A DNA stretch of 28,389 nucleotides from a virus, in IMG/VR virus record IMGVR_UViG_3300034284_000643, positions 1 to 28,389 of that record; one strand, 5' to 3'. Below, piece by piece: positions 3 to 18,166 of the stretch. Under the pieces are notes generated by a model. The model made no database searches and had not been told where the DNA came from. It worked only from the letters and a program-made list of their open reading frames with translations. Within the stretch, counting starts at the first letter, position 1; the number at the start of each line of letters is the position of its first letter. The position numbers and the translations under genes are program-made.

Positions 3-3000
3 GGTGTTGATGTGACACCATCTGGTTCGGATGGAGTATTAGTAACCATATTAGGTGGCGGTGGTGGTGGTGCTGGTATTGGTGATTTACTTAGTTCACA
101 AACCGCTTCAATGTTGGTTGGTACGGCATCATTAGCATTTACAGCATCTTACGCAATATTCGCATTAAATTCGGCAAACGTTGATACTGCATCATTCTTA
201 CAAGTAAATAAAGATAGTAAAATTGATGCTAACTTAACTATTAGTGGTAGTTTGGGTGTTAGTGGTAGTGTGTTATTAAATTCATTACCATCTGGTTCAT
301 CTGAAAATGTTGTTGTTTGGAATGATGTAACAAAAAAATTAGAAAGAAGAAATATAGCAGCAGCAGTTGGTTCATCGGGAACATCTGGTGCACAGGGTTC
401 ATCTGGTTCAAGCGGAAGTAGTGGTACATCTGGTTCAAGCGGCTCAAGTGGTAGTTCGGGTTCATCTGGAATAGATGGTACTAATGGTACAAGCGGAAGT
501 AGTGGTTCAAGCGGAAGTAGTGGTAGTAGTGGTTCAAGCGGAAGTAGTGGAACTGCCGGAAGTAGTGGTTCATCCGGTTCATCTGGAAGTAGTGGTACAT
601 CAGGAAGTAGTGGTACAAGTGGCTCATCAGGTTCAAGCGGTTCAACAGGTTCTGCTGGTACAAGCGGTAGTAGTGGAAGTAGTGGTTCAAGTGGTAGTTC
701 GGGTTCATCTGGTACATCAGGCTCAACGGGTTCTGCTGGTACATCTGGAAGTGGTGGTTCATCGGGCTCTGGAGGTACATCGGGTTCAAGCGGAAGTAGT
801 GGTACATCGGGAACTTCAGGTTCATCTGGAAGTAGTGGAAGTAGTGGTTCATCGGGTTCAACTGGTTCAGCTGGTACATCAGGTTCTTCTGGTACAAGCG
901 GAAGTAGTGGTACATCGGGTTCATCAGGTTCAACTGGAACAGCTGGGTCTTCTGGTTCATCGGGTTCATCGGGAACTTCTGGAATAAGTGGAACATCGGG
1001 TTCATCGGGAACAACTGGTTCTGGTGGCTCATCAGGAACAACAGGTACGGCTGGAACATCGGGTTCTTCTGGTTCTGCTGGTAGTGGAGGTTCTGCTGGT
1101 ACAAGCGGTTCATCGGGAACTTCTGGTACATCGGGTTCTTCTGGTAAAGCTGGAACTGATGGTTCATCAGGAACTTCTGGTAAAGATGGTAGTGGTGGTA
1201 CTTCTGGTACAAGTGGTTCATCAGGAACTTCTGGTAAAGATGGAACATCGGGAACTTCTGGTGAAGATGGTACATCGGGAACTTCTGGAAGTAGTGGCTC
1301 ATCAGGTACAACTGGTTCATCAGGTACAACTGGTTCATCAGGTACATCGGGAAGTAGTGGTTCATCCGGTTCATCTGGAAGTAGTGGTTCATCGGGAAGT
1401 AGTGGTTCATCGGGAACTACGGGCTCATCTGGTACTAGTGGTACTAGTGGAAGTAGTGGCTCATCAGGAACTTCTGGTTCATCGGGAACTTCTGGTTCAA
1501 GTGGCTCAGCTGGCACAACAGGTTCTTCTGGAACAAGCGGAAGTAGTGGAAGTAGTGGCACATCAGGAACTTCTGGAACTGACGGAACGTCTGGTTCAAG
1601 CGGGTCTGCTGGTTCATCTGGTTCATCTGGTTCAACTGGTTCGGCTGGAACATCTGGCACAGCTGGCACAGCTGGTAGTTCAGGCTCATCAGGAACTTCT
1701 GGTACTGATGGAACATCGGGCTCAAGCGGCTTGAGTGGTACTGATGGTACAAGCGGTAGTAGTGGTAGTAGTGGAACGGCTGGTTCATCTGGCACAAGCG
1801 GTAAAAATGGTAGTAGTGGTAGTAGTGGGAGTAGTGGAACGGCTGGTTCTTCTGGAACATCTGCTGAAGGTACATCTGGAACTTCAGGTACCAATGGTAC
1901 AAGCGGAAGTAGTGGTTCAAGCGGAAGTAGTGGAACGAATGGCACGTCTGGTTCAAGCGGTTTAACAGGAACTTCTGGCACAAGCGGAAGCAGTGGAAGT
2001 AGTGGAGTTGATGGTACAAACGGAACTGGTGGAACGGCCGGCTCTTCTGGTAGTAGTGGAAGTAGTGGTTCAAGCGGCACAAGCGGTTTGGATGGTACAT
2101 ATTTTGGTTCATCGGGTTCATCAGGAAGTAGTGGTACGACTGGCACAGCAGGTTCTTCAGGAACTTCAGGAACAAGTGGCTCAAGCGGCTCTTCTGGATT
2201 AGATGGTACATACTTTGGTAGTAGTGGTTTAAGTGGTTCAAGCGGTTCTTCTGGAAGTTCTGGAAGTACAGGTACATCTGGTAGTACGGGGACTAATGGC
2301 ACATCGGGAACTTCTGGATTAGATGGTACATACTTTGGAAGTAGTGGCTCATCTGGTACAAGCGGTACAACAGGAACTTCTGGTTCATCTGGAATAGATG
2401 GTACAAGCGGAAGTAGTGGAAGTAGCGGAAGTAGTGGAGTTGATGGAACATTTTTTGGTACAAGTGGTACAACAGGAACGTCTGGTTCATCTGGAAGTAG
2501 TGGCACATCGGGAACTTCTGGTTCAAGCGGAACTACTGGACTTGACGGAACATATTTTGGTAGTAGTGGTTCAAGTGGAAGTAGTGGTTCAAGCGGAACT
2601 ACTGGAGTTGATGGTAGTAGTGGAAGTAGTGGTTCATCGGGAAGTAGTGGACTAGATGGAACATTCTTTGGTAGTAGCGGTATTTCTGGAACATCAGGAA
2701 GTACTGGATTGAATGGTACATCTGGATTAGATGGAACTTCTGGCACAAGCGGAAGCAGTGGAAGTAGTGGAACTTCTGGATTAGATGGAACATATTTTGG
2801 TAGTAGTGGTACATCAGGTTCATCTGGCACATCGGGCTCATCGGGCTCAACTGGTACGGCAGGTTCTTCTGGTATATCGGGTTCAGATGGTACATCGGGT
2901 TCAAATGGTTCTTCTGGTTTAGATGGAACATTCTTTGGTAGTAGTGGTACAAGTGGTTCTGATGGTACAAGCGGAAGTAGTGGTACAAATGGTACAACGG

Positions 3001-4052
3001 GTACGGCTGGCTCATCTGGAAGTAGTGGTACAACAGGAACTTCTGGTGTGAATGGTACTTTCTTTGGAAGTAGTGGTACATCCGGTTCGTCTGGCACAAA
3101 TGGTACAACTGGTACGGCTGGTTCAAGCGGATTTACTGGTAGTAATGGTACAAGTGGTACAACTGGAACATCTGGTGTTAATGGTACTTTCTTTGGAACA
3201 AATGGTACATCAGGTAGTGGAGGTACATCTGGTACTGGAGCAAATGGTACATCGGGATTAGATGGTACTTCAGGTACATCATTCTTTGGAGTTACATCTG
3301 GAACGGCTGGTACGTCTGGTACATCACCATTAGGATTTACAAATGGTACATCAGGAACTTCAGGTTCAACAGGAAGTTCTGGATTAGATGGTACATACTT
3401 TGGTTCTTCGGGTTCATCTGGTACTTCAGGCGCAACAGGGCCTGCAGGTACTTCGGGTACTTCATTTTTCGGAACAACATCAGGAACAGCAGGTACATCT
3501 GGAACATCCCCATTAGGATTTACATCTGGTACTTCTGGTACTGGAGCATCTTCTGGTACTTCTGGATTTATGAATGTAAGTGGTACTACTAATAATGGTG
3601 TAATTACATATGATAGTGTATTACCTGGTGGTAGTGTTGAATCTAACTTAGTATTTGATGGTACTACATTAACATTAACAGGAAACTTAGGAGCTAGTGG
3701 ATATATAAGTTCAACAAATTATGTAACTTCTACTACATTTAGAGAAACATATTCTGATTTAGGAACTGGCGGTAGTACAACATTAGACCTATCAACAGCA
3801 AATAATTTCAGAAGACAATTTAATGGTACTGCAACACTTACATATTCAAATCCGCCAGCATCAAATGCATTTGGATTTACTTTAGTAGTTGTAAACGCTG
3901 GAGCATATACTATAACATGGCCAGCAACAATAGATTGGGTGGGTGGAACTGCACCAATATTAACATCGTCTGGTACTGATGTGCTGGCATTTTATACATT
4001 TAATGGTGGTACAACATATTACGGATTTGTAACAGGTAAAAATTTAAGTTAA
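3..4052 (+). CDS. Giant collagen-like tail fibre, 5' partial
   Basis: The frame is open to the left edge. The first possible start in view is a GTG at 12, but codons before it (Gly-Val-Asp) remain in frame, so the true start probably lies upstream. Numbering from the GTG: residues 1-120 are a beta-type N-terminal region with ISGSLGVSGSV-like strands; about 121-1184 are Gly-X-Y triplets, mostly G-S-S, G-T-S and G-S-T; 1185-1346 are a non-repetitive Ser/Thr/Gly-rich C-terminal domain with aromatic strands, likely the distal tip. The triplet shaft is of the collagen-like type seen in phage fibres. From residue 695 it is interrupted roughly every 40 residues by GTYFG/GTFFG. The flanks of the shaft resemble those of the second fibre at 6108-13796, so the two are modular paralogues. 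A role as trimeric host-binding fibre or whisker is inferred. A structural protein is nearly certain; exact placement in the virion is unknown. Confidence 0.85.
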   Translation, partial: GVDVTPSGSDGVLVTILGGGGGGAGIGDLLSSQTASMLVGTASLAFTASYAIFALNSANVDTASFLQVNKDSKIDANLTISGSLGVSGSVLLNSLPSGSSENVVVWNDVTKKLERRNIAAAVGSSGTSGAQGSSGSSGSSGTSGSSGSSGSSGSSGIDGTNGTSGSSGSSGSSGSSGSSGSSGTAGSSGSSGSSGSSGTSGSSGTSGSSGSSGSTGSAGTSGSSGSSGSSGSSGSSGTSGSTGSAGTSGSGGSSGSGGTSGSSGSSGTSGTSGSSGSSGSSGSSGSTGSAGTSGSSGTSGSSGTSGSSGSTGTAGSSGSSGSSGTSGISGTSGSSGTTGSGGSSGTTGTAGTSGSSGSAGSGGSAGTSGSSGTSGTSGSSGKAGTDGSSGTSGKDGSGGTSGTSGSSGTSGKDGTSGTSGEDGTSGTSGSSGSSGTTGSSGTTGSSGTSGSSGSSGSSGSSGSSGSSGSSGTTGSSGTSGTSGSSGSSGTSGSSGTSGSSGSAGTTGSSGTSGSSGSSGTSGTSGTDGTSGSSGSAGSSGSSGSTGSAGTSGTAGTAGSSGSSGTSGTDGTSGSSGLSGTDGTSGSSGSSGTAGSSGTSGKNGSSGSSGSSGTAGSSGTSAEGTSGTSGTNGTSGSSGSSGSSGTNGTSGSSGLTGTSGTSGSSGSSGVDGTNGTGGTAGSSGSSGSSGSSGTSGLDGTYFGSSGSSGSSGTTGTAGSSGTSGTSGSSGSSGLDGTYFGSSGLSGSSGSSGSSGSTGTSGSTGTNGTSGTSGLDGTYFGSSGSSGTSGTTGTSGSSGIDGTSGSSGSSGSSGVDGTFFGTSGTTGTSGSSGSSGTSGTSGSSGTTGLDGTYFGSSGSSGSSGSSGTTGVDGSSGSSGSSGSSGLDGTFFGSSGISGTSGSTGLNGTSGLDGTSGTSGSSGSSGTSGLDGTYFGSSGTSGSSGTSGSSGSTGTAGSSGISGSDGTSGSNGSSGLDGTFFGSSGTSGSDGTSGSSGTNGTTGTAGSSGSSGTTGTSGVNGTFFGSSGTSGSSGTNGTTGTAGSSGFTGSNGTSGTTGTSGVNGTFFGTNGTSGSGGTSGTGANGTSGLDGTSGTSFFGVTSGTAGTSGTSPLGFTNGTSGTSGSTGSSGLDGTYFGSSGSSGTSGATGPAGTSGTSFFGTTSGTAGTSGTSPLGFTSGTSGTGASSGTSGFMNVSGTTNNGVITYDSVLPGGSVESNLVFDGTTLTLTGNLGASGYISSTNYVTSTTFRETYSDLGTGGSTTLDLSTANNFRRQFNGTATLTYSNPPASNAFGFTLVVVNAGAYTITWPATIDWVGGTAPILTSSGTDVLAFYTFNGGTTYYGFVTGKNLS
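372..3563 (+). repeat. Collagen-like 9-bp repeat array, about 1,060 codons
   Basis: This is a continuous run of 9-bp units encoding Gly-X-Y. The units use a small vocabulary: GGAAGTAGT, GGTTCAAGC, GGTTCATCG, GGAACTTCT, GGTACAAGC and GGTACATCG recur constantly in shuffled order. Both serine codon families are used, which breaks up long exact DNA repeats. The antisense frame is open over about 2.9 kb for compositional reasons only. Confidence 0.95.
2094..3475 (+). repeat. Aromatic interruption motif GT(Y/F)FG in the collagen-like shaft
   Basis: Motifs begin at 2094, 2205, 2325, 2445, 2547, 2658, 2787, 2925, 3054, 3183, 3273, 3390 and 3456 (residues 695 to 1149). Most read GLDGTYFG, GVDGTFFG or GVNGTFFG; the copies at 3273 and 3456 read GTSFFG. 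Intervals are mostly 34-46 residues. Each adds one residue between triplets (G-T-Y-F before the next Gly), so the collagen register shifts by one. Two of the later motifs are followed by GTSGTSPLGFT. The first 570 residues of the shaft lack the motif. Confidence 0.9.
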
Positions 4053-4063
4053 TAATTATAGTT

Positions 4064-4969
4064 ATGGGAATATTTAGAAGATTAGTAGAATCAGATTCAT
4101 CGGCAGTTTTTCCTTTTGTATTTAAAATAACAACAACGGTAGCTAATACGGTATTTACAACCCCATTAGTTGATTATGCTGGATTGACTCCAAGTTTATT
4201 TATAAATTGGGGAGATGGGAGTGCAAATTCTCCATTAATTACAGCATCATCATCTACAAATAGAATTCATACATTTGTAGCACCTGGAACTTATACAATT
4301 ACTATAAGTGGGTTTATGCCAGGATTTAGAGTAAATAATAATTCTGGAATAAGAAACCTCATTACTGAATTAGTACAATGGGGAGTAGTTGGATTGAGAA
4401 CAATAGATTTTTATGGTTGCCAAAATTTAACAGCAATTCCTGGTAGCGCTTCTTTAAGTGGTGTTGGTGGATATACTGGATTGGCAGAAGTTATAAATTT
4501 CTCATCTCTATTTCAAGGTACAAGAATATCATCAATACCTTCTGATTTATTTGAATATTCTCCAAATGCAACTACATTTTCAAATACATTCTCATCAATA
4601 TTAACATTAACAACAGTACCAAACGGATTATTTGATAGTGTACCAAATGCAACTACATTTGCATCTTGTTTTTTTGGATGTTCGGCATTAACTTCAGTAC
4701 CATCTACATTATTTGACCAAAATACAACGGCAGTAAACTTTTCTGGTACTTTCTATAATTGTAGAGCATTAACAAATGTATTACAATTTACTTATAATAC
4801 AAACGTTACAATTTTTAATAACTTATATTATATGAGTTCAACATCAAATGCGTTGACAGGAACTGCACCTACATTGTGGTTACGAACTCCAACACCATCT
4901 GGTACTAGAGCATTTTTTAATTGTACTGGATTAGCAAACTACGCATCAATACCTTCAAATTTCAAATAA
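4064..4969 (+). CDS. PKD-like plus BspA-type leucine-rich repeat protein
   Basis: A 301-residue protein starts 11 bp after the first fibre. Residues about 20-88 look like a PKD-type beta-sandwich: a WGDGS turn at about 47-51 followed by HTF and PGTYTITISG, the usual PKD signature. Residues about 105-300 contain degenerate repeats of the form F-x-x-C-x-x-L-T-x-x-P-x-x-L-F, resembling the BspA / DUF285 class of leucine-rich repeats found in bacterial surface proteins. There is no signal peptide. Lying between a fibre and a fibre-assembly-type gene, it is most likely a fibre tip or adhesin subunit. The domain calls are from visible motifs; the virion role is inferred. Confidence 0.7.
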   Translation: MGIFRRLVESDSSAVFPFVFKITTTVANTVFTTPLVDYAGLTPSLFINWGDGSANSPLITASSSTNRIHTFVAPGTYTITISGFMPGFRVNNNSGIRNLITELVQWGVVGLRTIDFYGCQNLTAIPGSASLSGVGGYTGLAEVINFSSLFQGTRISSIPSDLFEYSPNATTFSNTFSSILTLTTVPNGLFDSVPNATTFASCFFGCSALTSVPSTLFDQNTTAVNFSGTFYNCRALTNVLQFTYNTNVTIFNNLYYMSSTSNALTGTAPTLWLRTPTPSGTRAFFNCTGLANYASIPSNFK

Positions 4970-4970
4970 T

Positions 4971-5414
4971 ATGTATTTAAGAATTATAGAAGAAAATATT
5001 AATTATCCATATAGTGTTAATGATTTAAGAGAATCATATCCTAATGTAAGTTTACCTGCTGAATTAAGTGATGGGGCTTTAATAGAATGGGATATGTATG
5101 TAGTAACGCCAACTCCAGCACCATCTGATTATACAAAAAACATTACAGAAGGTACTCCAACTTTAATTGATGGAAATTATCATCAAACTTGGAATCAAGT
5201 CAATGCATCTGAAGCAGAGATTTCATATAGAATTGAAAATCAATGGGAAGAAGTTAGAGTATTGAGAAACCAATTACTAACTGAATGTGATTGGACACAA
5301 TTAGCAGATATCTCATCTGAAACTAAAGAAGCTTGGACAGTATATAGACAAGCATTGCGAAATATTACAACACAAACGAATCCATTTAGTATAGAATGGC
5401 CAGCGAAACCTTAA
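4971..5414 (+). CDS. Phage tail/fibre assembly chaperone-like protein
   Basis: A 147-residue protein starts one base after the stop of the PKD/LRR gene, which suggests coupled translation. The C-terminal half (about 84-147) carries the pattern LRNQLLTECDWTQLAD, then W-x-x-YRQALRNI and a terminal WPAKP. This is the signature of the phage tail assembly chaperone family often found beside tail-fibre genes in other phages. The N-terminal half (about 1-80) is different and may bind the cognate fibre or adhesin. It probably helps the neighbouring fibre protein fold or attach and need not be in the finished virion. The family call is fairly strong; the client is inferred from position. Confidence 0.75.
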   Translation: MYLRIIEENINYPYSVNDLRESYPNVSLPAELSDGALIEWDMYVVTPTPAPSDYTKNITEGTPTLIDGNYHQTWNQVNASEAEISYRIENQWEEVRVLRNQLLTECDWTQLADISSETKEAWTVYRQALRNITTQTNPFSIEWPAKP

Positions 5415-15298: not shown

Positions 15299-17626
15299 AT
15301 GGCAGAAAGAATCGTATCACCCGGCGTATTCACAAGAGAAAATGACCTATCCTTCTTAGCGCAAGGAGTAGGAGAGATTGGAGCAGCATTTATAGGACCT
15401 TTTAAAGAAGGACCTGCATTCATTCCAACCATTGTGAGAACTCAATCAGAATTTGAAGATATCTTCGGAACACCTGATGGAACTTATTATACTGAATATG
15501 CAGTACAAAGATATTTGCAAGAAGCTGGACAAGCAACTGTAGTTAGAGTAGCTGGAACTGGAGGTTACACTCAAGTAGCTCCTTTAGCAATATTCGCTAG
15601 TGGTTCTCAAAATCAATCTTTAGGTACTAAATTGATTGGAGTATTATACTCTACATCTACTGGATATCAAAATTTTGGTTTTACTGGAGCAACTGTTGCT
15701 AGTAATTTAGCATTAGATGGTTCATTCGCCTTATCTGCATCTTTCTTAACTCCGGTATCGGCATCGATTTTACCAACTGATACAAATGATTTAGCAGATG
15801 TATTTGGTGAATCTCCATTTGGTAGTAAGCAAGCATATGTTTTTAATTATTATGAAAATATGGCCGGTAACTATACTGGTTCGGTGACTAGTAATATTGT
15901 AATTAGTGGAATAGCATTACCTACGCAAGATTATACAGGTGGTAGTGCAGATGCATACTCACAAGCAATTACTCCGTGGATTGTTTCTCAAAAAGATACT
16001 AACAATTTAAGAAGTAATCTTTTCAAATTCCATACATTAGGACATGGTGATATTTATAACACAAAATATAAAATTGGTATTTCAAATATTAAGGCAGCTG
16101 GTGAAGATGGGGCAACTGATTATTCTGTATTCACTGTAACTGTTAGAAGTTATTCTGATACTGATAAGAGAAAGAGTGTAGTTGAAACTTACAATAATGT
16201 AAACTTAGACCCAACATCTACTAACTATATAGCTAGAAGAATTGGTGATAGATATATTACTATTGATTCTGATGGTAAGATTACTGAAAATGGTGATTAC
16301 TCAAACAAATCAAAGTACATAAGAGTTGAAGTAGCTGAGGCGGGTTCATACCCAATATCAGCAGCACCATTTGGACATGAAGCATATACAAACCCTGTTT
16401 ATTGTGGTAACACAACTTACGCAGGAGAAATACCTCCGGTAGTTTACCAAACTGGTTCGGCTGATAACACATCATCATCTCCAATATATTATAGTGGATT
16501 TGATTTTAGTAATATGGATAATGTGAATTACTTAAAACCAATTCCTGCTAGTGCAGAAACTGGAGCAAACGTATTATTCGCATTTGATTCTCAATTATCA
16601 TATCAAATGACTGGTTCATCCGCAGTTGATATGGTTAAAAGACAATTTGTATTAGGATTCCAAAAAGGATATGATGGAATGAACCCAACAACTAAAAAAG
16701 CTAAAGCTGGTGATATTGGTGTATGGGGAGCAGCAAATACGCAAGGATTTAACTGTTCAACTGGAGTATCAATAGGTACAACGGCTTATTACAAAGCAAT
16801 TAACGCTGTATCTAACCCTGATGAGTGGGATATTAACTTAGTAGCAACTCCTGGTATTGTAAGAAGCTTACACCCATCGGTTACTTCTAAAGTAATTGAT
16901 ATGGTTGAAGATAGACAAGATTGTTTCTATATCGCTGATTTCAACGATTATAATGATTCAATTACTGAAGCAACTGAGCAAGCAAATTCAGTAGATTCAA
17001 ATTATGTAGGAACTTATTATCCTTGGGTTAAGACAGTTGATAACAACACAAACAAATTAACTTCAGTTCCACCATCAGTATTGATGCCGGCTGTATTCGC
17101 TTCTAACGATAGATTAGCAGCAGAATGGTTCGCACCTGCTGGTTTGAATAGAGGTGGTATTAGTGGAGCAGTTAGTGTATTGAATAGATTAACACACTCT
17201 GAAAGAGATACTCTATATGAAAACAAAGTAAACCCAATCGCAGCATTCCCTGGACAAGGTATTGTAGCATTCGGACAGAAGACATTGCAAGATAAGGCAT
17301 CTGCTTTAGATAGAATCAATGTTAGAAGATTACTTATCGTTCTTAAGAAGTTTATCGCTTCAACATCTCGTTACTTAGTATTCGAACAAAATACCGCTAC
17401 AACTCGTCAAAGATTCTTAAACACTGTGAACCCTTACTTAGAGGCAGTTCAACAAAGACAAGGTTTATACGCTTTCAGAGTAGTAATGGACGAATCTAAC
17501 AATACACCTGATGTAATTGATAGAAACATATTAGCAGGACAAATTTTCTTACAACCGGCTAAGACAGCTGAATTCATCGTAATTGATTTCAACATCTTAC
17601 CAACTGGAGCAAGTTTTACAGCATAA
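15299..17626 (+). CDS. Contractile tail sheath protein (T4 gp18-like)
   Basis: A 775-residue protein opening MAERIVSPGVFTRENDLS, the typical sheath N-terminal strand, followed by IGAAFIGPFKEGPAFIP and an FGTPDGTYYTEYAVQRYLQ segment. The C-terminal 300 residues hold the conserved sheath core: APAGLNRGGISGAV, NPIAAFPGQGIVAFGQKTL, then NVRRLLIVLKKFIASTSR and QNTATTRQRF. The protein is longer than T4 gp18 (about 660), with the extra length in the variable middle domain (about 110-440). It polymerises around the tube and contracts at infection. Codons ending in C are commoner towards its C-terminus than in most neighbours, as expected for an abundant protein. The start follows an A-rich leader (AGAAATAAA). 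The tube gene is 51 bp downstream. Confidence 0.95.
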   Translation: MAERIVSPGVFTRENDLSFLAQGVGEIGAAFIGPFKEGPAFIPTIVRTQSEFEDIFGTPDGTYYTEYAVQRYLQEAGQATVVRVAGTGGYTQVAPLAIFASGSQNQSLGTKLIGVLYSTSTGYQNFGFTGATVASNLALDGSFALSASFLTPVSASILPTDTNDLADVFGESPFGSKQAYVFNYYENMAGNYTGSVTSNIVISGIALPTQDYTGGSADAYSQAITPWIVSQKDTNNLRSNLFKFHTLGHGDIYNTKYKIGISNIKAAGEDGATDYSVFTVTVRSYSDTDKRKSVVETYNNVNLDPTSTNYIARRIGDRYITIDSDGKITENGDYSNKSKYIRVEVAEAGSYPISAAPFGHEAYTNPVYCGNTTYAGEIPPVVYQTGSADNTSSSPIYYSGFDFSNMDNVNYLKPIPASAETGANVLFAFDSQLSYQMTGSSAVDMVKRQFVLGFQKGYDGMNPTTKKAKAGDIGVWGAANTQGFNCSTGVSIGTTAYYKAINAVSNPDEWDINLVATPGIVRSLHPSVTSKVIDMVEDRQDCFYIADFNDYNDSITEATEQANSVDSNYVGTYYPWVKTVDNNTNKLTSVPPSVLMPAVFASNDRLAAEWFAPAGLNRGGISGAVSVLNRLTHSERDTLYENKVNPIAAFPGQGIVAFGQKTLQDKASALDRINVRRLLIVLKKFIASTSRYLVFEQNTATTRQRFLNTVNPYLEAVQQRQGLYAFRVVMDESNNTPDVIDRNILAGQIFLQPAKTAEFIVIDFNILPTGASFTA

Positions 17627-17647
17627 TACGAAAATAAAGGAATTAGA

Positions 17648-17655
17648 TATTTATT
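17648..17655 (+). promoter_or_regulatory. TATTTATT motif before the tube gene
   Basis: A recurring AT box 30 bp upstream of the tube ATG. The same gap has AAAAAGGAATAAAA directly before the start, one of the few Shine-Dalgarno-like GGA sequences in the window. Separate transcription of the tube from here is possible but unproven. Confidence 0.25.
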
Positions 17656-17677
17656 AATATAATAAAAAGGAATAAAA

Positions 17678-18166
17678 ATGGCAGAAATATTAGAGTTTGA
17701 TAAGATGTTCTATACGAACTTCGAACCTAAGATGAAAAATAGATTTGTAATGCAAATCGATGGTATTGATTCATACTTAGTTAAAGCAGCACAAAGACCA
17801 ACAATTACTTTTGAGCCTGTTGTGTTAGACCACATCAACGTTAAGAGAAAATTAAAAGGTAAAGGTGAGTGGCAAGATATCACAATTACTCTTTATGACC
17901 CAATTGTTCCTTCTGGAGCACAAAAGGTAATGGAGTGGGTGAGATTATCACATGAATCAATTACTGGTAGAGATGGATACGCTGATTTTTACAAAAAAGA
18001 CTTGGATTTCTATATGTTAGGACCAGTTGGTGATAAAATTGAACAATGGAAAATCAAAGGAGCATTTATCCTAAGTGCAAACTTTGGAGATGTAGCATTT
18101 GATTCAAACGAACCAGCAACAATTGAATTAACATTAGCAATGGATTACGCAATCTTAGAATTCTAA
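17678..18166 (+). CDS. Tail tube protein (T4 gp19-like)
   Basis: A 162-residue protein, the usual length for T4-type tube subunits. It starts MAEILEFDKMFYTNFEPKMK, then NRFVMQIDGIDSYLVKAAQRP, a standard tube pattern. VKRKLKGKGEWQDITITLYDP and the C-terminal ATIELTLAMDYAILEF are also typical. It forms the inner tube through which DNA passes, stacked inside the sheath encoded just upstream. A strong rho-independent terminator follows at 18199-18229, so sheath and tube form a compact transcription unit. Confidence 0.93.
   Translation: MAEILEFDKMFYTNFEPKMKNRFVMQIDGIDSYLVKAAQRPTITFEPVVLDHINVKRKLKGKGEWQDITITLYDPIVPSGAQKVMEWVRLSHESITGRDGYADFYKKDLDFYMLGPVGDKIEQWKIKGAFILSANFGDVAFDSNEPATIELTLAMDYAILEF

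Follow-up and report, generated by a model that had tools for sequence, protein, structure and literature searches.

What a regularly repeated aromatic interruption might do in the shaft of a collagen-like phage fibre is the question raised by the virus fragment IMGVR_UViG_3300034284_000643 (IMG/VR), whose entire record of 28,389 bp is referred to here as the window. Collagen-like fibres of phages are common in metagenomes and little studied. The window opens with an open reading frame (ORF) whose start lies outside it and which matches the Pfam family Collagen (PF01391) with 372.5 bits at a cut-off of 27.2. Its shaft consists of 1066 residues (aa 123-1188, nt 369-3566), nearly all in GSS- or GTS-like triplets; a walk along the Gly-X-Y register assigns 317 of 355 tokens to plain triplets. 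Proline accounts for 3 of the 1066 residues, and the richness in proline and hydroxyproline typical of collagen is absent; the two residues are the usual stabiliser of collagen, not a strict requirement. The fibres of six complete relatives (loci L009, L087, L100, L113, L118 and L122) measure 3325-4045 aa, of which about 2,070-2,520 aa N-terminal to the shaft form a different, beta-rich-looking repeat. The window therefore holds the C-terminal part only, and most of the protein is missing.

The distal part of this shaft carries the array in question. An earlier note on this DNA had counted thirteen aromatic motifs, each adding one residue to the triplet register, mostly 34-46 residues apart and confined to the distal half of the shaft. 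All 13 [YF]FG sites are present (nt 2100-3471). The added residue, however, is found in 11 of them (GTYF or GTFF, hereafter nodes), whereas in the two TSFFG sites, at aa 1091 and 1152, 5+4-residue tokens (GTSFF-GVTS and GTSFF-GTTS) leave the register unchanged. The spacing was described correctly for 10 of the 12 gaps (37, 40, 40, 34, 37, 43, 46, 43, 43, 31, 38 and 23 residues), as was the location: the first motif lies 575 residues into the shaft (54%). Of the 29 aromatic residues in the shaft, 26 belong to the motifs and none lies in the proximal half. When the non-glycine residues were shuffled 20,000 times, the motif arose at most once, compared with 11 observed copies, and the regularity of the spacing exceeds that of random placement (P=0.001). 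The 11 copies are encoded by 10 distinct 24-mers, with pairwise differences of 0.12, 0.07 and 0.40 at codon positions 1, 2 and 3, respectively. Since the codons have diverged while the residues are fixed, a repeat maintained at the DNA level is rejected.

Relatives were sought by scanning IMG/VR with the motif written as a degenerate DNA pattern. For a locus to be picked up, one of its sites had to have Asp or Asn ahead of the motif and glycine two residues behind it; the remaining sites are unselected. The same array is found in the same gene of many IMG/VR phages, with at least 119 stretches on at least 114 contigs (counted by hand). Removal of near-duplicates left 52 non-redundant shafts among the matches listed. 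In a census that follows the glycine register without presupposing the motif, 531 of the 532 +1 breaks in the distal zones are GT[F/Y/L/M/N/S]F or GTFN (GTFF 328, GTYF 93, GTLF 66, GTMF 25, GTNF 12, GTFN 5, GTSF 2, other 1). Upstream of the first motif there are only 7 such breaks, a contrast that is partly a matter of definition, as the first motif sets the border between the zones. Asp or Asn directly precedes the motif in all 534 sites and a GSS triplet directly follows in 470 of 534, while more distant spacer sequence is generic, giving the node consensus G-[LVFQK]-[DN]-G-T-[FYLM]-F-G-S-S. The first hydrophobic place prefers F over Y over L over M, and the second is almost always F; this pattern suggests buried hydrophobic residues better than exposure to sugar. 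The array is real, conserved and functionally constrained.

Gaps between the nodes of these related arrays have a median of 40 and a mean of 40.6 residues, and 97% fall within 30-53. The mean spacing per array ranges from 37 to 44 residues, and the number of nodes grows with the length of the array (slope 40.1 residues, r=0.97). Compared with random placement of an equal number of motifs, 49 of 50 arrays are regular at P<=0.05 and 45 of 50 at P<=0.001; as the loci are related, a combined value is not a probability. Spacing is thus conserved in the relatives, the absence of which the earlier note had named as grounds for giving up its proposal. The gaps are not rigid: in the pair L044 and L096 the last 110 residues match (1.00 at printed precision), yet 5 of 7 gaps differ by three residues each. 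Such changes by whole triplets indicate that lengths drift but are held within limits. Successive gaps show a slightly negative lag-1 autocorrelation (P=0.03). The average first gap, at 37 residues, is short and the average second gap, at 44, long, which probably reflects shared ancestry. We note that a match of the 40-residue gap to the height of a sheath ring was dropped, since no good multiple results and the gaps are too variable.

The arrays share a zoned build. Plain shaft extends over 523-694 residues ahead of the first motif in 28 of the 31 shafts with a readable start, and most of the 27 complete shafts have 8-17 nodes (one has 3). The distal zones also contain 122 -1 breaks; like natural collagen interruptions, the breaks of both signs are flanked by regular triplets. 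Across 36 shafts, 98 of 472 gaps contain such a -1 break (G-x-G), placed more centrally in the gap than at random (P=0.004), as though opposite-sign breaks could cut each rod into halves. Breaks of the forms G-A-G and G-L-G are seen near the middle between nodes in L054, L015, L087 and other shafts. A separate class are register-neutral inserts of 9 residues with Phe or Pro near the tip, such as TSFFGVTS and TSPLGFTN in the window. In many relatives a run of these (GTTPPNFTS, GTNAPGFSS, GTSFYGVTS) stands between the nodes and the tip, the TTPPNFTS and TNAPGFSS inserts lying about 20-30 residues apart.

The array also stays with its gene. The downstream order is conserved and consists of a gene for a 301-aa protein, an assembly chaperone, two small genes and a second fibre. 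The 301-aa gene or the chaperone is kept in 43 of the 43 arrays with enough downstream room, and a mobile module was rejected on the same ground. Constant neighbours make the node array a property of one orthologous fibre gene. The array persists even where identity over the last 130 residues of the tip is as low as 36%. A cellular origin was likewise discarded: 84,980 genomes gave 13 single matches to the pattern, none of them an array, and only one (L137) lies inside a short collagen-like ORF.

For the function of the nodes, the earlier note had offered flexible joints, lateral docking points or locks of the trimer register. A structured joint or a clamp fits best. Docking to a rigid lattice is disfavoured, since phase-locking does not exceed that expected from the low variance of the arrays, and a pure anti-slippage code gains no particular support, since no tuned aperiodicity is seen. 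The reading that we prefer, tentatively, is that of a presumably trimeric tail fibre of great length, whose conserved nodes are structured joints near the tip. The nodes would split the last ~40% of the collagen-like rod into rods of about 12-14 triplets. At the collagen rise of 0.286 nm per residue, such a rod would be ~11 nm long and the window's noded zone ~124 nm. In a homotrimer three extra residues would meet at the level of each node, together with six hydrophobic, mostly aromatic side chains. These could pack as a small hydrophobic knot that takes up the extra residue and holds the three chains together; the knot is suggested by the Phe-rich substitution pattern, which fits burial. Each node would then be a bend or soft joint, and the arm beside the host-binding tip a series of short, stiff rods, with the G-x-G deletion near mid-gap as a second break in many relatives. 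It is possible, though slightly less likely, that such a segmented arm is built from a conserved trimeric aromatic 'stutter' (+1), sometimes with a 'stammer' (-1) in mid-segment, the sequence setting both segment length and bending.

Four points weigh against the structured joints. The related shafts are of common ancestry, hence counts across loci are not independent. A single-chain AlphaFold model of the shaft is uninformative, with a predicted local distance difference test (pLDDT) score of 32. A loose hinge does not need strict conservation, so that the bend may be small or absent. Finally, the shaft is nearly free of proline, and a triple helix is presumed from the repeat and the Pfam match only.

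A serious rival, although we consider it unlikely, is that the nodes are folding or register clamps without a role in bending, which would nucleate and align three proline-poor chains as they zip from the C-terminal tip. The hydrophobic and invariant character of the nodes agrees with this, as does their position on the tip side, where zipping would begin; moreover, the repetitive GSS/GTS sequence could readily slip by whole triplets. Yet 520-690 proximal residues of the same composition get by without nodes, as does the window's second shaft. Node positions are also not tuned against slippage: their best off-register overlap is 0.42, compared with 0.41 in permuted order, and a tuned register code was rejected because periodicity in the arrays is not below that of permuted ones. 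With nodes on the tip side only, and none in the proximal shaft or the second fibre, a mechanical task near the tip fits better than general help in folding, which on the sequence data would favour a joint over a clamp.

Lateral docking, in which nodes would attach the fibre to its neighbours, to the tail or to the capsid, or would gather the distal arms into bundles, is improbable. A regular mean spacing per array and an exposed linear geometry would suit it, but individual gaps differ by several triplets and are quick to change, the arrays fit a lattice no better than permuted ones do (departure of 3.0 versus 3.04 residues, P=0.21) and the residue pattern suggests burial; docking to a lattice was therefore rejected as the main cause of the spacing. 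Repeated weak receptor sites, whose aromatic side chains on the distal arm would bind glycans of the host surface, are highly improbable: the distal location, the many copies and the aromatic residues are what such sites call for, but Trp is absent, Leu and Met substitute at one place while Phe is near-fixed at the other, unlike sugar stacking, and the diversification expected of such sites is missing. Least probable is a by-product of repeat expansion, that is, a chance unit duplicated without a function of its own, for although the gene is simple-sequence DNA and spacers within one protein are slightly more alike than shuffled ones (0.57-0.58 versus 0.47-0.48), codons have diverged around fixed residues, gaps stay bounded despite fast changes in length, nodes outlast the divergence of the tips noted above and a similar sparse motif occurs in a fibre of a 735-kb phage.

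That phage, the uncultured LR756501 (L147), is among the closest known comparisons. Its fibre shaft is likewise proline-poor and of the GTS/GSS type, with four +1 breaks of the form Gx-D-G-[NTS]-F-[YLF]-G (GVDGNFYG, GKDGNFLG, GVDGTFFG and GKDGSFLG), but these are sparse and lie 63-232 residues apart, compared with about 40 in the window lineage. LR756501 has at least three collagen-like ORFs, one of which (2816 aa) contains about 780 GTS/GSS triplets.

Among described systems, the prophage side-tail proteins EPclA/B of E. coli O157:H7 have terminal domains and a collagen-like shaft with one conserved interruption, and EPclA is trimeric with a hinged stalk by electron microscopy (PMC3368898). 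The window fibre is also a phage-encoded collagen-like shaft with a terminal domain, whereas EPclA/B are much shorter. For the window protein and the relative L009 the Pfam scan gave Collagen only and no phage-fibre domain, with the limit that PfN, Pf2 and PfC, the domains on either side of the collagen stretch in EPcl, were not assigned to particular Pfam models. The upper fibre FibU (gp68) of phage 80alpha (PDB 6v8i; PMC7048315) also has a predicted collagen-like stretch, which is short (about 30 residues), uninterrupted and without a node array. One-residue breaks in the Gly-X-Y register are shared with non-fibrillar collagens, mannan-binding lectin and C1q. Such breaks loosen and bend collagen helices, and experiments tie them to bends or kinks: the GQG break in mannan-binding lectin was fitted with a bend of up to 85 degrees, and the extra residue in C1q results in a kink (PMC9898670). 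Those collagens usually have one or few breaks and no single repeated motif, in contrast to the lineage-wide, near-invariant aromatic motif at bounded spacing in the phage array. PDB matches to the shaft were set aside as ordinary collagens and low-complexity matches.

The earlier note knew of no described phage fibre with this spacing, and neither such a fibre nor a repeated aromatic +1 interruption at bounded spacing was found in the open-access literature searched, most subscription papers being outside that scope. Collagen-like phage fibres and natural collagen interruptions are already known; the repeated aromatic +1 node at bounded spacing appears to be new. It bears on how long proline-poor rods fold, keep register and flex, and it is the hallmark of an orthologous fibre gene whose zoned build is predictable and whose product, where complete, has roughly 3,400-4,000 residues. 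A single node conserved across a lineage is also short enough to be tested as a peptide and might serve in the design of jointed collagen materials. If the segmented-arm design is true, it could be a general building rule for flexible collagen rods.

The features of the window are collected in Table 1.

Table 1. Fibre gene, nodes and neighbouring tail genes of the window (nucleotide positions)
Feature	Position	Strand	Remark
C-terminal part of giant collagen-like fibre protein	3..4052	+	ORF open at 5' end, start outside window
Proximal plain Gly-X-Y shaft, GSS/GTS rich	369..2084	+	No aromatic residues; register walk, Pfam Collagen
GTSAE, two-residue insertion	1854..1868	+	80 aa ahead of node 1; also in some relatives
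Node 1 GLDGTYFG	2085..2108	+	
Node 2 GLDGTYFG	2196..2219	+	
Node 3 GLDGTYFG	2316..2339	+	
Node 4 GVDGTFFG	2436..2459	+	
Node 5 GLDGTYFG	2538..2561	+	
Node 6 GLDGTFFG	2649..2672	+	
Node 7 GLDGTYFG	2778..2801	+	
Node 8 GLDGTFFG	2916..2939	+	
Node 9 GVNGTFFG	3045..3068	+	
Node 10 GVNGTFFG	3174..3197	+	
Register-neutral 9-residue inserts GTSFFGVTS ... GTSPLGFTN	3273..3344	+	Separate class; near tip in relatives
Node 11 GLDGTYFG	3381..3404	+	
Register-neutral 9-residue inserts GTSFFGTTS ... GTSPLGFTS	3456..3527	+	Separate class; near tip in relatives
C-terminal tip domain, predicted all-beta	3564..4049	+	AlphaFold2 mean pLDDT 85.9
Conserved 301-aa gene after fibre	4064..4969	+	Present in 72/125 searched loci
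Tail fibre assembly chaperone	4971..5414	+	Pfam Phage_tail_APC 1.7e-16; conserved beside fibre
Second giant fibre, 2562 aa	6108..13796	+	Collagen-like shaft without aromatic nodes; self-cleaving Peptidase_S74 chaperone end
Tail sheath and tail tube	15299..18166	+	Pfam Phage_sheath_1, Phage_T4_gp19

The tip domain matches the C-termini of other phage fibres, two of them annotated as collagen-like (Foldseek, BFVD), and gives tblastn matches to Roseobacter phages. Against PDB folds it has weak matches only, to a phage tailspike and a capsid spike (best E 1.8e-3). The 301-aa gene shares about 29% identity with ORFs in records of Klebsiella phages. Genes for the sheath and a gp19-like tube lie in one cluster, as in a T4-like contractile tail module, and the lineage consists of uncultured, probably large, contractile-tailed phages (myoviruses). 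The sheath protein places Microcystis phage Mel-JY01 (48%) nearest among isolates, followed by Flavobacterium immuto phages (39.5%). The motif pattern has no exact match in CRP-603, in Mel-JY01 or in a Flavobacterium immuto phage, and no array was found in GenBank phages by blastn or by tblastn, the latter weakened by low-complexity masking. Mel-JY01 harbors a gene annotated as prolyl 4-hydroxylase (L150, 1572-2171), though the shaft studied here is nearly proline-free.

The N-terminal fibre repeats of L009, L100, L113 and L122 contain inserts that appear cupredoxin-like by eye (H..., Y-x-C-x-x-H-x-x-M; for example LYYNCQFHSSMAG). In L087 such an insert is found within the collagen shaft (about aa 2716-2820 of the fibre ORF). 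A tblastn search with one cupredoxin-like stretch led to cyanophage baseplate/fibre connector proteins.

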